Positions 30,015 through 39,536 of a stretch of 64,000 nt of DNA are shown here, piece by piece. The stretch is from Fluviicola sp. (lineage in GTDB: Bacteria; Bacteroidota; Bacteroidia; Flavobacteriales_D; Crocinitomicaceae), in NCBI RefSeq assembly GCF_039596395.1, contig NZ_JBCNJT010000003.1:62001-126000 (forward strand), given 5' to 3'. The notes beneath the pieces were generated by a model. The model ran no database searches. It was given only the letters and a program-made list of their open reading frames with translations, and was not told where the DNA came from. Numbering within the stretch: position 1 is the first letter of the stretch; each line of letters opens with the position of its first letter. Made by a program: the position numbers and the translations under genes.

Positions 30015-30055
30015 TCGGATCGGTATTTTAATTGGAGCTAAATGTACTAATATCT

Positions 30056-30101
30056 AATTACGAATTACGAATTGCGAATTGCGAATTGCGAATTGCGAAT
30101 T
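30056..30101. repeat. Tandem heptamer repeat (about 6.5 units)
   Basis: Two AATTACG units are followed by four AATTGCG units and a final AATT. It begins 42 bp upstream of the serine-hydrolase start. The same heptamers (as GAATTAC/GAATTGC) recur at 51126-51171. Confidence 0.9.
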
Positions 30102-30165
30102 CGGTCATTTACTTACTAAGACTGAAAGTGGGTGGAAATGTTACAAACTTCTGCTCCTGGTCCAA

Positions 30166-32575: not shown

Positions 32576-32938
32576 CTATCCCTGCGCTAATTTGTTCAGT
32601 GCTTCTTCCGTTGATCCTAAAAAGTTGATCAGTTTCCCTTTATTGGATTCGTACATGAAATCAGTGATGCTTTTCCCGGTGCAGGCAGAAAAATCTCCTA
32701 CAATGGCCAGGCGGACCCGGTAATTCGAAAATTTCTGAAGAATTTCTCCGGCCATCCTGTTTTTCAGATCGAAGAAAGCAGGAGTGAGGTTCTTTTCATG
32801 GATAATGATCCGGTCGAAACCCTGGTAATAGAGATTTCCCAACAGGTCAAGCCCGTCTTCTTCCTTTTCGATGATCAAACCTTCCGCATTTATTTCCGCA
32901 ATGGAAACGTTGTTAATGGTGTGAGCTTTGATTTGCAT
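32576..32938 (-). CDS. DUF4180 domain-containing protein
   Basis: 120 residues covering one complete DUF4180 domain: IAEINAEGLIIEKEEDGLDLLGN, then GFDRIIIHEKNLTPAFFDL, and VRLAIVGDFSACTGKSITDFMYESN (family landmarks; parts quoted as IIIHEKNLTPAFFDL and SLTDF-like SITDFMYESN). Function unknown; the fold resembles the STAS/SpoIIAA-like group in outline, which is only an impression. The ATG shares a base with the stop of the upstream 32938-33597 gene, so the two are coupled. Confidence 0.82.
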   Translation of the reverse strand: MQIKAHTINNVSIAEINAEGLIIEKEEDGLDLLGNLYYQGFDRIIIHEKNLTPAFFDLKNRMAGEILQKFSNYRVRLAIVGDFSACTGKSITDFMYESNKGKLINFLGSTEEALNKLAQG

Positions 32939-33597
32939 TAGTTAATCGGGACAATGACCCATTTTTTTCCGATTTCGAATAGTTTGCTATTTACTTTTTG
33001 AGGAGTGGCCGCATACGCTTCCCAGGTGATGGTTCTGTCGGGCCATTCAAACTCGATTTTCAAAGGCAAAGACTGCGATTTTTCATAAATGACATTGTAT
33101 GCATTTCCTTTGCAATTCTTAAAATGATCCGGGTCTACCGGGAAATCTTTGGAGCAGTAATACCTGCGGTAAGAAATTGGTCCGTCTTGTCCGGAAGGAA
33201 TGAGTTTTAAGGTCACCACAACGCAGGAATGGCCTAGGATTTTTTCTTCGTAATCCTTCACTTCCACATCCATTACATCCATGTCGGTAACGGTTCCGTC
33301 GACCCGGTAAGCAGTGTCGGATTTACTCATGGGCAAATAATTGGCAACCTCCGAAGCCCGGAATAAATCGCCGGCAAATAGTCCGCCATGGTTCACGAAT
33401 TTGTAATTGCCTTTTTTATAATAGTATTCGGATTTTTGTCCCAATGCGGAATAGTCGTAATTGACATCGTAGCTTTTTTCTTTGGGAGTCACCGTGTGTT
33501 TATACTTGATAACGCCTTCGAATTCCTTTTGCGCCGTCAGCTGAGTGACGAAAAAAGAAAACAGAACGAATAATAAAAGATGCAAACCTGGCTTCAT
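32938..33597 (-). CDS. Hypothetical secreted protein (GLPGLI/DUF4412-like)
   Basis: 219 residues with a signal peptide (FSFFVTQLTAQ). The mature protein starts with FEGVIKYKHTV and contains beta strands typical of small Bacteroidota envelope proteins that begin with a GxIxY segment and have a shared C-terminal strand, such as DUF4412 or GLPGLI families. Two cysteines (HSCVVV, YYCSKDF) and NCKG may pair. Function unknown. Its stop overlaps the DUF4180 start by one base. Upstream lies structured repeat copy 1. Confidence 0.65.
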   Translation of the reverse strand: MKPGLHLLLFVLFSFFVTQLTAQKEFEGVIKYKHTVTPKEKSYDVNYDYSALGQKSEYYYKKGNYKFVNHGGLFAGDLFRASEVANYLPMSKSDTAYRVDGTVTDMDVMDVEVKDYEEKILGHSCVVVTLKLIPSGQDGPISYRRYYCSKDFPVDPDHFKNCKGNAYNVIYEKSQSLPLKIEFEWPDRTITWEAYAATPQKVNSKLFEIGKKWVIVPIN

Positions 33598-33687: not shown

Positions 33688-33859
33688 TTTCCACCTTTTT
33701 GTCATTGCCACAAAAAGGTGGAGCCAAAAAGGTCTAGGCGTGGTAAACCAATCGACCTGTTAGCAGGTTATGCCAGAATTTCTCATAAACTCAGCTGCGC
33801 CTCAAACAGTATGAGAAATTTACTGGCATTTACTGCACAGGTGCCCGATCTTGTTCACC
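33688..33859. repeat. Structured dispersed repeat, copy 1 (about 172 bp)
   Basis: Three hairpins are visible. H1 is CCACCTTTTTGT pairing with ACAAAAAGGTGG around CATTGCC (33691-33721). H2 is ACCTG/CAGGT around TTAG (33755-33768). H3 is TGCCAG+AATTTCTCATA pairing with TATGAGAAATT+CTGGCA (33771-33828) with a 2-nt bulge. A final CAGGTG/CACCTG stem closes the element (to 33861). Copy 2 at 34570-34744 has the same layout with compensated changes in H1 and H3. No ORF. Confidence 0.9.
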
Positions 33860-33962
33860 TGATCGCCATTCAAATCCTTTTTCAGCTGATCTAAAATTCA
33901 TTCTAAAAAATAATTCGGGCAGGTTTAGTTTTATTAGCAGACATAGTTTGCGAATCATCGGG

Positions 33963-34553
33963 CTAGTCTACGATCTCATTTCTATATAACTCCACCAAAT
34001 CCTCAAAAGAAAAACGGTTCGCGGCACGTGGAGATGTAGAATACAAAACCACCAGTTCGATCGTCCGGTCGCGGTATTGAAAAGCGCTTTTGATCGGTCT
34101 TTTCCCGGTAGGGAAGCGGTGTTTGATGTCGTGTGTTGCCAGAAAGTTATTGAACCATCGAGCAGCACTTTCTTTCCCCGAGCTGCTGGTAAAAATGACT
34201 TTGTGTATACCTGGATTTTCGTCCAGTATCTGGAAGATATTCATGTACTCGACGATGCTCAGGTTTTCGTCCAGCGAACTGTTCCCGCTGCGCTGAATGT
34301 GACGGCCCATATCTGTAACTGCTACACGCAGTTTTCTGAGGATGTCTTTTCGTTCCTCTACAGCGAGTTCTCCGCTCGGATACTGAATTTCCGTTTCGGC
34401 AATGCGTGCCATGATCCTCCAGAAAAAATTCGCCTTATTCGGGTAAAAGAAATCGAAGGACCAGTTCCGTTTGGTCGGCGGGAAGGTCCCGACAATGAGA
34501 ACACGGCTGTTTTCCGGTGCGAACCAATTCCAGGGATGAAGTTCTTGTTGCAT
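33963..34553 (-). CDS. Uracil-DNA glycosylase superfamily (Mug/hypoxanthine-glycosylase-like) protein
   Basis: 196 residues. The N-terminal motif VLIVGTFPPT and the following FFYPNKANFFWRIM match motif I and the base-pocket Asn/Phe region of Mug/UDG-like enzymes. The C-terminal motif reads LYSTSPRAANR, the second DNA-contact motif. Such enzymes excise damaged bases from DNA; the exact lesion specificity cannot be told. It lies alone on the minus strand and is flanked on both sides by direct copies of the structured repeat (33688 and 34570), so it could be a duplicated or mobilised unit. Confidence 0.75.
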   Translation of the reverse strand: MQQELHPWNWFAPENSRVLIVGTFPPTKRNWSFDFFYPNKANFFWRIMARIAETEIQYPSGELAVEERKDILRKLRVAVTDMGRHIQRSGNSSLDENLSIVEYMNIFQILDENPGIHKVIFTSSSGKESAARWFNNFLATHDIKHRFPTGKRPIKSAFQYRDRTIELVVLYSTSPRAANRFSFEDLVELYRNEIVD

Positions 34554-34569
34554 CCTCCAAGATAATCAT

Positions 34570-34744
34570 TTTCCACCTTTTTACCATTGCCGTAAAAAGG
34601 TGTAGCCAAAAAGGTCTAGGCGCGGGTAAACCAATCGACCTGTTAGCAGGTTATGACAGAATTTTTCATAAACTCAGCGTACCGCCTCAAACAGTATGAA
34701 AAATTTACTGTCATTTACTGCACAGGTGCCCGATCTTGTTCACC
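34570..34744. repeat. Structured dispersed repeat, copy 2 (about 175 bp)
   Basis: Direct repeat of 33688-33859. H1 is CCACCTTTTTAC with GTAAAAAGGTG around the same CATTGCC loop. H3 is TGACAG+AATTTTTCATA with TATGAAAAATT+CTGTCA. Four base pairs differ from copy 1 and each change is compensated, while the H2 hairpin and the stretch CTGCACAGGTGCCCGATC are unchanged. Confidence 0.9.
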
Positions 34745-34810
34745 AAAGCGCCGTTTTGAATTGTTTTTTCGAAAACGATTAGGTCTTCCAAGAAAATTGT
34801 CATTTGTATG

Positions 34811-35377
34811 TTAGTGCTTCTTAACAAACTTACCGGACGGCTCGATTTCGTAGTTGAGTGTTTCGATTACAGGTTCTTCATCCATGTAGTTGTAATTGGT
34901 CACTACAATACCGATTTTGGAAACTTTTCCGATAGAGGAAAATGCAGATTCGGCGATCTCATCGTAGGCAATCACCACCTTGTCGATGACTTTGTAATCT
35001 TCTTTGGTATAGGAAATTAAAAAAGTTTGCATTTCAAATTCACCGGCCAATGTAACCACCACCGCGTCGATCTTATCCGAAAGCGCCACGCGATACCGCG
35101 AATAAAAGTGCTGGTGCTCCGGATCGTCACTTTTCAATTTTAGTTTGGTGGCAATTTCTTTCGAAAGCACTGTTTTTCCCTCGAAATCATCGAAACTGGT
35201 GGAATCGACTACCGGCAATTTCTTGAAAGGAACTCCCTTCAGCAAATCGGCTTTTTCCAACTGTTTTTCGATGGGCAGGTTCTTCAGGGAATCATTTCCG
35301 GTTTCTTTGTTTTCGTTCCCGCCACAGGAGAACAGGAAGCAGGATAAAACTGCGATTGAAAGAATTTTAAAATGCAT
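34811..35377 (-). CDS. Hypothetical lipoprotein
   Basis: 188 residues from ATG 35377, where the lipoprotein signal (AVLSCFLFSCGGN) begins. The mature part alternates beta strands and charged turns (PFKKLPVVDSTSFDDFEGK, KIDAVVVTLAGEFEMQTFLI). I recognise no family. Many small Bacteroidota lipoproteins of this size are envelope proteins of unknown role. It is upstream of repeat copy 2 and about 105 bp from the next lipoprotein gene on the same strand. Confidence 0.65.
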   Translation of the reverse strand: MHFKILSIAVLSCFLFSCGGNENKETGNDSLKNLPIEKQLEKADLLKGVPFKKLPVVDSTSFDDFEGKTVLSKEIATKLKLKSDDPEHQHFYSRYRVALSDKIDAVVVTLAGEFEMQTFLISYTKEDYKVIDKVVIAYDEIAESAFSSIGKVSKIGIVVTNYNYMDEEPVIETLNYEIEPSGKFVKKH

Positions 35378-35482
35378 AAGAAGGATTATTGGAGTACCGA
35401 AGTTAATAATCATTCGGGTTTGTTGAGCCACATTTACTGAAAACTATTCTCTGTGTTTAAGACGCCTCGTTGTACAACTCAC

Positions 35483-38580: not shown

Positions 38581-38607
38581 AACCGCAAAGAGAAGAAGTA
38601 CGCAAAT
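38581..38607. repeat. Single 27-nt repeat arm (CCGCAAAG type)
   Basis: AACCGCAAAGAGAAGAAGTA starts an arm that closely matches 24535 and 38966. It lies 13 bp after the endonuclease stop and has no private inverted partner; the right arm at 39509 could pair with it too. Confidence 0.7.
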
Positions 38608-38657: not shown

Positions 38658-38921
38658 ATGACGAAAGAACAACTTTTAGAATCGTATTTGATCAATCTCC
38701 GCAAAAAATTGAATGCGCTGGATTATGCTTCTGCTGACAGGGAACAGTTGGCTGAGTTGGTATTTGCGATCAAACATCAAATGAGTCAGCGATTGAATGA
38801 GCATTTCCAACAGCACTTCATTGACGACCTTTCCGATGAAGAAATAGTAACATTCTTTGAATCGGTAAAGAAAGGTGCTGATGAGATTATAGCAGCGCTG
38901 CCGGTGGATTTTTCGGATTAG
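38658..38921 (+). CDS. Hypothetical small protein (87 residues)
   Basis: A soluble, mostly helical protein beginning MTKEQLLESYLINLRKKLNA and ending AALPVDFSD, with no signal or cysteines. I recognise no family. A TAACTTTC box (38646-38653), close to the TAnnTTTG consensus, lies 4 nt before the ATG. It is placed between a single repeat arm and the GxxExxY cassette, in a region rich in repeats, and could be a small accessory protein. Confidence 0.5.
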   Translation: MTKEQLLESYLINLRKKLNALDYASADREQLAELVFAIKHQMSQRLNEHFQQHFIDDLSDEEIVTFFESVKKGADEIIAALPVDFSD

Positions 38922-38965: not shown

Positions 38966-39536
38966 AACCGCAGAGAGAAGAAGAGCGCAAAGATTAAGTG
39001 CATCTTTCTTTGTAATGAAAATTTTCTTAACTTAAGAATAGTAACTTACTACTATTCAATATGTCAGAAAACGAATTATCCTCAATTATTATTGGAGTGG
39101 CCATTGAAGTTCACACACAACTTGGTCCAGGACTCCTTGAAAGTGTTTATGAAACATGTTTGTACTATGAACTTAAACAACTGGGCTTAAAAGTCGAGAG
39201 ACAAGTTGAGCTTCCGGTAAAATATAAGAATCTATGCCTGGACTCTGGTCTCAGATTGGATCTGATAGTTCAGGACAAGGTAATCATTGAGTTAAAAGCT
39301 GTTAGAGAACTTTGCGATATTCATGTTGCACAGACTTTGACCTATTTAAAATTGACAGATCTAAGATTAGGTCTTTTAATCAATTTCAATGAAGTTCGCT
39401 TGAAAAATGGACTCAGAAGAATTGTAAATAACATGGCTAAAAGCAATTGATTCCAATAAAATGTGATTTCTCTCATTCTCTTATGAAAGGTCTTTTGGAT
39501 ACATCATGCTTTGCGTCCTTCTTATTCTTTGCGGTA
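38966..39536. mobile_element. Inverted-repeat cassette enclosing a GxxExxY gene
   Basis: The left arm 38966-38992 and the right arm 39509-39536 are imperfect reverse complements of the CCGCAGAG family. The left arm is identical to 24535-24561, and the right arm resembles 24651-24677. The interior holds only the 129-residue GxxExxY gene. No clear target duplication was found. Calling it mobile is inference from the shared ends at a second, gene-free locus. Confidence 0.6.
39061..39450 (+). CDS. GxxExxY protein, PD-(D/E)xK nuclease-like
   Basis: 129 residues. The family motif is G24-LL-E27-SV-Y30 in GPGLLESVY. The nuclease-like core is visible as Asp67 in GLRLDLIV and Glu77-Leu-Lys79 in VIIELKAV, the D...E-x-K pattern of PD-(D/E)xK enzymes. 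Members of this family (TIGR04256/PF13366) occur in many bacteria, often in several copies, with unknown role. It is bracketed by inverted repeats that also occur elsewhere without a gene, which suggests that the repeat ends and this nuclease fold act together. No toxin, phage or helicase partner is beside it. Confidence 0.85.
   Translation: MSENELSSIIIGVAIEVHTQLGPGLLESVYETCLYYELKQLGLKVERQVELPVKYKNLCLDSGLRLDLIVQDKVIIELKAVRELCDIHVAQTLTYLKLTDLRLGLLINFNEVRLKNGLRRIVNNMAKSN

Follow-up and report, generated by a model that had tools for sequence, protein, structure and literature searches.

The window, a 64,000-nt stretch of a Fluviicola sp. contig, carries two copies (w1 and w2) of an element of ~180 nt, made up of a hairpin (H1), a linker and a long second hairpin (H2) of 131-134 nt, whose fold is well supported. 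We tentatively read it as a dispersed, multi-copy structured RNA element with a knotted 3' end that would stabilise or mark the transcript upstream of it, and give this reading somewhat less than an even chance. The copies and their parts, on the minus strand (the proposed RNA strand), are as follows:

33688-33867, minus strand: copy w1
33737..33867, minus strand: H2 of w1, the 5' long imperfect hairpin of the proposed RNA, 131 nt, from the single-copy fold, consensus folds and pair counts
33787-33792 and 33801-33808: conserved internal loop of w1 H2, plus-strand letters AAACTC and CTCAAACA, respectively
33723..33736, minus strand: linker of w1, plus-strand letters GCCAAAAAGGTCTA, containing the third run along with the letters that would pair with the H1 loop
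33690..33722, minus strand: H1 of w1, the 3' hairpin with a 13-bp stem and a loop at 33703-33709 that reads CATTGCC on the plus strand
34570-34752, minus strand: copy w2
34619..34752, minus strand: H2 of w2, long hairpin of 134 nt, from the single-copy fold and consensus folds
34605..34618, minus strand: linker of w2, from its sequence and its conservation in diverse cores
34572..34604, minus strand: H1 of w2, 11 bp in the best fold, loop at 34585-34591

The original prediction, made from these two copies, placed them at 33688 and 34570, where both are found with 91% identity by BLAST; its ends need a small extension, as H2 runs slightly further, to 33867 and 34752 on the minus strand. Over the 43 pairs of a consensus fold, 39 are unchanged between w1 and w2 and four differ on both sides, with no one-sided change and no broken pair; 4 of 86 unpaired columns differ. 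These four pairs reproduce the compensated changes first noticed, G-C to A-T and T-A to C-G in H1, and C-G to A-T and C-G to T-A in a segment then called H3, and the loop CATTGCC and the TTAG segment are identical in the two copies, as had been claimed. Three separate hairpins had been proposed; the best fold consists instead of H1 and one long H2, which encloses both the TTAG and the H3 segments. Folding of w1 and w2 exceeds chance, since z-scores were -5.6 to -6.8 and none of 200 dinucleotide shuffles was as stable in any of six folds, four of them for w1 (each strand, both as RNA and as DNA) and two for w2 (the plus strand as DNA, the minus strand as RNA).

Selection for folding, the core of that prediction, is borne out beyond the two copies. 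The consensus fold of 43 pairs comes from an alignment (A2) of 12 hand-picked same-type copies, which omits those interrupted by inserts (L008, L019, L020 and L022) and includes L003, with its broken H1; 13 of the 43 pairs show two-sided changes among these rows. Pairing is largely kept in further copies, a point on which the prediction had been staked: at the same sites in relatives, w1 and L018 differ by three two-sided changes, none one-sided and none broken, and w2 and L006 by three two-sided, none one-sided and two broken. The covariation statistics that had been called for point the same way. Across 42 distinct H1 stems of several families, picked from loci by loop and tag letters only, 93.3% of cells are paired compared with 70.2% when arms are shuffled, covariation is 0.572 compared with 0.145 in shuffled arms, and 8 of 11 pairs show two-sided changes. 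Positions 3, 4, 5 and 6 from the loop are T-A in 42, 42, 41 and 41 of the 42 stems; this nearly fixed T/A core is flanked by covarying pairs, with three or four Watson-Crick types at each of positions 1-2 and 9-11.

H2 turns over in sequence across the family while its architecture is kept. Its several types (A, B, C and others) are unrelated in sequence and share a plan with GGC... at the base, and many H2, though not all, contain the internal loop AACTC / CTCAAACA and an inner hairpin; in a Cytophagales metagenome-assembled genome (MAG) and some other genomes the second hairpin is short and without this loop. In type B (20 rows, minus strand), two-sided changes occur in 33 of 48 pairs and 92.5% of cells are paired, compared with 76.3% after shuffling; when the partner is slid by 1-3 columns, pairing is only 42-54%.

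BLAST and model searches agree on three copies in the genome that contains the window (G000; 4.6 Mb, five contigs), the third at G000:C1:326308-326466 with its H1 interrupted by another sequence. BLAST of 99 relatives gave matches in 15. A model of H1 and linker (R1) was built from alignment A3, which holds 35 of 41 dereplicated cores (L003 and L012:2226 were omitted as broken, and L086, L092, L121 and L146 for their longer runs) and in which the linker is conserved. The search with it, of a kind suggested at the outset, shows that w1 and w2 are not the sole copies: under strict filters 33 of 59 relatives are positive, among them 11 of the 14 genus genomes, with 1 to 26 matches per positive genome. 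An exact core pattern matched 111 stretches in named public genomes, and 77 of the 80 matches listed belong to Bacteroidota by name (Cytophagales, Saprospiraceae, Chitinophagaceae, Flavobacteriaceae genera and Salinivirgaceae), which takes the element beyond the single lineage first envisaged. The other three listed are a Sporomusa isolate, a Patescibacteria MAG and an Absconditabacteria MAG. One subtype accounts for 57 near-identical cores among the 111; those with titles all come from one Cytophagales MAG, many of them near contig ends. The copy in Sporomusa acidovorans (L081:5375-5620) has a long, very stable second stem (z -7.0) and, lying outside the Bacteroidota, suggests rare transfer between phyla. 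The exact core pattern had no match in viral contigs, where phage carriage would appear, and an 81-base query against plasmids gave one short match, to a Bacteroides plasmid (E 0.01).

The element had been called unnamed, and this agrees with Rfam 15, in which no family reached its gathering score for the whole window or for 20 diverse loci (the five matches in the region of the copies, at E 1.3-9.3, lie far under the gathering scores), and with literature searches, confined mostly to non-subscription papers, in which no published description was found among the matches listed. Present in these 33 relatives and across the Bacteroidota, strongly covarying and without an Rfam match, the family is a sizeable structured element that has gone unannotated in a major phylum.

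The first reading implied the plus strand; the consensus folds better on the minus strand. For type B, the same 20 elements, with each strand aligned separately, gave -34.8 kcal/mol and 48 pairs on minus versus -15.6 kcal/mol and 21 pairs on plus, because many pairs alternate between G-C, G.U and A-U on minus. For type A the values were -43.8 on minus (alignment A7, 11 rows, L003 excluded) and -33.0 on plus (12 rows including L003), a comparison not quite like for like because the row sets differ by the copy with the broken H1. All 48 elements tested, taken from the 67 matches of the placement set described below, are more stable on minus, an advantage that is partly one of base composition, as shuffle z-scores are equal between the strands. 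Non-Watson-Crick cells in H1, counted in the 83 of 129 distinct stems with at least 8 Watson-Crick pairs of 11, are on plus A.C in 30 cases (that is, 30 G.U on minus), G.T in 7 and other in 28; the asymmetry has a binomial p of 0.0015 against the independent expectation and, counted by distinct stems, is 19 to 5 (p 0.023). In type B, the 24 pairs with at least two Watson-Crick types have 47 G.U versus 11 A.C on minus, which is not an unbiased test because the structure was predicted on that strand, and in type A H2 the cells are even (five G.T, five A.C). The folding strand is therefore probably minus, opposite to the first reading, judging from these models. Tolerance of G.U on one strand favours RNA; the choice between RNA and single-stranded DNA, earlier left open, leans by this wobble pattern to RNA, and a minus-strand RNA is the likely folding molecule.

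Evidence for pairing outside the stems comes from a sister subtype with loop CTTGAY and linker RTCAAG. Of 299 genomes of the order, 15 contain this pattern with Y and R left free, for a total of 27 matches; a reversed control has none. Y and R are complementary in 26 of the 27 (16 C-G and 10 T-A), or in 20 of 21 distinct strings (Fisher p 1.3e-4), and the lone exception is a G.U on minus. The hallmark of an H-type pseudoknot, a loop that pairs with a strand outside its stem, is thus seen in the CTTGAY subtype at one free position. In the CATTGCC subtype, to which the window copies belong, the majority combination CATTGCC/GGTCTAGG (44 of 92 rows) mispairs in part in the pseudoknot register; variant loops mostly switch together with the linker (CATTGAT with ATCTAGG, CATCGTC with GACTAGG), while CATCGCT does so incompletely. 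In the window copies, too, the H1 loop may form a pseudoknot with the linker. The length of the H1 T-A tract is correlated with that of the linker A-run in the CATTGCC subtype (rho 0.67, n=78) and not so in CTTGAY (rho -0.23, n=28).

Read on minus, the order of strands is linker pairing strand, U-run, U-run arm, loop and A-run arm, an order like that of pseudoknots with a triple helix, telomerase RNA among them. A U.A-U triple helix occurs in telomerase RNA and in ENE elements, and by analogy the pseudoknot of the element could contain one as well. The same strand order with conserved A/U runs is shared with telomerase RNA, with the PAN/MALAT1 ENE and with the guanidine-III and SAM-V riboswitches; the element differs from these in having no leader role for a downstream gene, in being joined to a long hairpin, and in that its triple helix is only predicted.

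These features bear on the idea that no selection is involved and that template switching during replication perfects imperfect palindromes. Such quasipalindrome correction yields two-sided changes without intermediates, which is what w1 and w2 show with their lack of one-sided changes, and the geometry of the H1 hairpin is ideal for it. We nevertheless consider this explanation very improbable, as it leaves unexplained why loop and linker are conserved, why the T/A core is nearly fixed and its flanks vary, why the loop covaries with a linker ~18 nt away, why one-sided states of G.U type occur on minus, and why the architecture outlasts sequence turnover.

In the window, the copies lie among three ORFs:

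32938..33597, minus strand: 219-aa ORF that follows w1 on the proposed RNA strand, starting ~91 nt past it
33963..34553, minus strand: 196-aa uracil-DNA-glycosylase-like ORF between the copies (PF03167 sub-threshold, 21.7 vs 24.3 bits), starting ~17 nt after w2 and ending ~95 nt before w1
34811..35431, minus strand: 206-aa ORF with no Pfam match at E 0.001, ending ~58 nt before w2 on the proposed RNA strand

PADLOC identified no defence system in three neighbouring ORFs. Since w1 and w2 lie on the strand of three consecutive minus-strand ORFs, read-through transcription is plausible. Placement across genomes was assessed in a hand-made set of 67 of the 70 places scoring at least 30 bits (omitting L028:268, L012:2601 and L204:1501), with ORFs called mechanically; 63 have ORFs on both sides and four lie inside an ORF call. 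Read on minus, the element stands behind a co-oriented gene in 43 of the 63 and not in 20 (p 0.005); within this, tandem orientation alone gives 22 versus 10 (p 0.05) and convergent versus divergent 21 to 10 (p 0.07), all p-values, those given above included, being optimistic because the rows are related. Genes downstream of the element are evenly split between the two orientations, an argument against a leader or riboswitch.

For the glycosylase-like gene, the 14 genus genomes give nine clear matches, that in its own genome included, and the 450 and 420 nt beside it were compared by reading. On the w1 side, G000 and G002 share both the element and the gene next to it, G008 has this neighbour and no element, the copy in G013 adjoins another gene, and none is seen in the remaining genomes. 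On the w2 side, the element is present in G000 and G007, only a short stretch resembling its start is left in G013, ahead of another repeat, and the rest have none. The element is thus present or absent at one site between species, through gain or loss. Gene conversion from other copies could have transferred compensated changes as blocks. At the w1 site G008 (L059) has a different palindromic repeat (CCCGCAGATTACGCGG...), of which G000 and G002 seem to retain one end only (window 33947-33966).

In the reading that we prefer, the element would be transcribed from the minus strand, together with the gene upstream on the same strand. The 5' part of the RNA would be the long imperfect H2 (~130 nt here) with its conserved internal loop UGUUUGAG / GAGUU, the middle a linker of UAGACC followed by a U-run, and the 3' part H1, with a U-run/A-run stem and the loop GGCAAUG. 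Base-pairing of this loop with the linker would close the pseudoknot, in which the U-runs of linker and H1 may form a U.A-U triple helix with the H1 A-run, and the knotted 3' end would block 3'-to-5' decay or set a processed end. REP hairpins in enterobacteria block decay or define processed ends, and a knotted 3' structure that follows a gene would suit a role in protecting or marking 3' ends. Transcription of the element and its stabilising role are proposals that go beyond the observed fold, covariation, spread and presence or absence at one site. The wider proposition, that it represents an undescribed, phylum-wide RNA class in which a 3' triple-helical pseudoknot is spread as an interspersed repeat and serves as a portable means of stabilising or marking the 3' ends of transcripts, we hold to be unlikely. 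If the element acts as RNA, it offers a tractable case for the marking or protection of bacterial 3' ends and a testable bacterial triple-helix pseudoknot.

The even orientation of downstream genes also fits a family of independent small RNA genes, each transcribed from a promoter of its own, working with a protein partner or in trans, and present in several copies per genome. The conserved two-part fold, loop, linker and internal loop would suit such a gene, as would a block of ~40 nt beside H2 that, by reading, is common to some Fluviicola copies of three H2 types. The block is missing from other copies, however, and the doublets, like the copies that other repeats interrupt, are more in keeping with repeats than with genes, so that this origin appears improbable to us.

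A mobile single-stranded DNA repeat of the REP/BIME kind, with hairpins recognised in trans by an HUH (Y1) or other transposase, is an explanation we regard as possible yet somewhat unlikely. The element is intergenic and multi-copy, varies in presence at the same site between species and forms inverted doublets at two loci, and the 57 near-identical cores, concentrated as described in one MAG, fit a spreading repeat. In the Bacteroidetes, moreover, TnpA subclass 2.6 genes have atypical structures on their flanks with copies elsewhere in the genome, according to PMC6006769, which also describes TnpA_Y1 subclass 2.6 as lacking the GTAG/GTGG foot. Against this, no CATTGCC-type H1 lies within ~1.5 kb (less at contig ends) of any of the 23 Y1 loci in the genus, so that a pairing with RAYT genes in the genus was rejected, and blastn of ten element queries against these loci gave one 19-nt match. 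A Y1 match is lacking in two of the 11 genus genomes that carry the element, one of these two being 100% complete, and three genes with a motif of the subclass 2.6 type adjoin, by eye, other palindromic repeats. Tolerance of G.U on one strand fits RNA better, and there is no consistent bias of strand relative to dnaA: on plus along the leading strand are 20 of 26 copies in G011 (19 of 25 without one match beside the assumed terminus), 5 of 8 in G003, 1 of 6 in G013 and 0 of 5 in G017, tallied by hand from the position of dnaA with the terminus assumed opposite. A search for an autonomous partner gene by clustering of ORFs over 111 loci returned mostly repeat-derived ORFs and scattered paralogues. 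If the element does act as single-stranded DNA, it would point to an unidentified transposase.

REP/BIME sequences and their RAYT transposases (TnpA_REP, including TnpA_Y1 subclass 2.6; PMC6006769) are likewise dispersed intergenic palindromes, some in inverted doublets. The element differs from them in being far longer, in its two-part fold, in not lying beside Y1 genes in this genus, in its one-strand G.U tolerance and in having no conserved GTAG/GTGG foot: w1 has GTGG in its H1 and at the base of its H2, and at the latter place w2 has CGGG. A REP hairpin spans 20-40 bp with such a foot, a description that the ~180-nt element does not fit. The three RAYT-like genes (L035, L038 and L040) share the motif YIH[QN]NP, and the palindromic repeats adjoining them, GCGCTGGATCTCCTGATCCTGCGC in L035 and GCACGAGCGAGACGCTCGC or similar in L038 and L040, could be the 'atypical' structures that have been reported for TnpA_Y1 subclass 2.6. 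A pseudoknot together with a possible single-stranded DNA nature, as considered here, was also discussed for STAXI in Weinberg 2010 (PMC2864571), the table of which includes Bacteroidetes motifs such as Flavo-1; no Rfam family reaches threshold for the element, a comparison that covers such of these motifs as Rfam includes.

Some copies occur in clusters of one orientation, 0.4-5 kb apart, and w1 and w2 flank a single gene, as would recombination sites that separate gene cassettes. The attC sites of integrons are long imperfect hairpins of variable sequence and constant architecture, clustered in one orientation, and the element resembles them in each of these respects. It differs in having an additional H1 module with loop-linker pairing. 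Cassette arrays were rejected as an explanation of the clusters, integron-like at first, when ORFs of thirteen regions were read: the genes that lie between copies are of both orientations and have the look of normal chromosomal genes, and in many cases an interval contains several genes or none. We find an attC-like role barely credible.

Other repeats are found within and around the copies. Short repeats with GAAGAC lie inside copies at L003:1501-1740, L054:12100-12500 (G008) and L019/L055 (G007), and one insert of this type resembles repeats beside the RAYT gene in L035. Head-to-head doublets of two different H2 types, ~400 bp in length, occur at L012:1502-2648 (twice) and L055:3065-3489. 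In the Cytophagales MAG (L070-L174), the core is embedded in a longer mosaic of short modules, the ends of which, approximately GTATGTG... and ...CACATAC, are inverted repeats. In the window itself, a short tandem repeat of GCGAATT-like units is located at 30045-30109, and a 26-nt direct repeat (88%) at 38581-38606 and 38966-38991 flanks a small ORF at 38658-38921.
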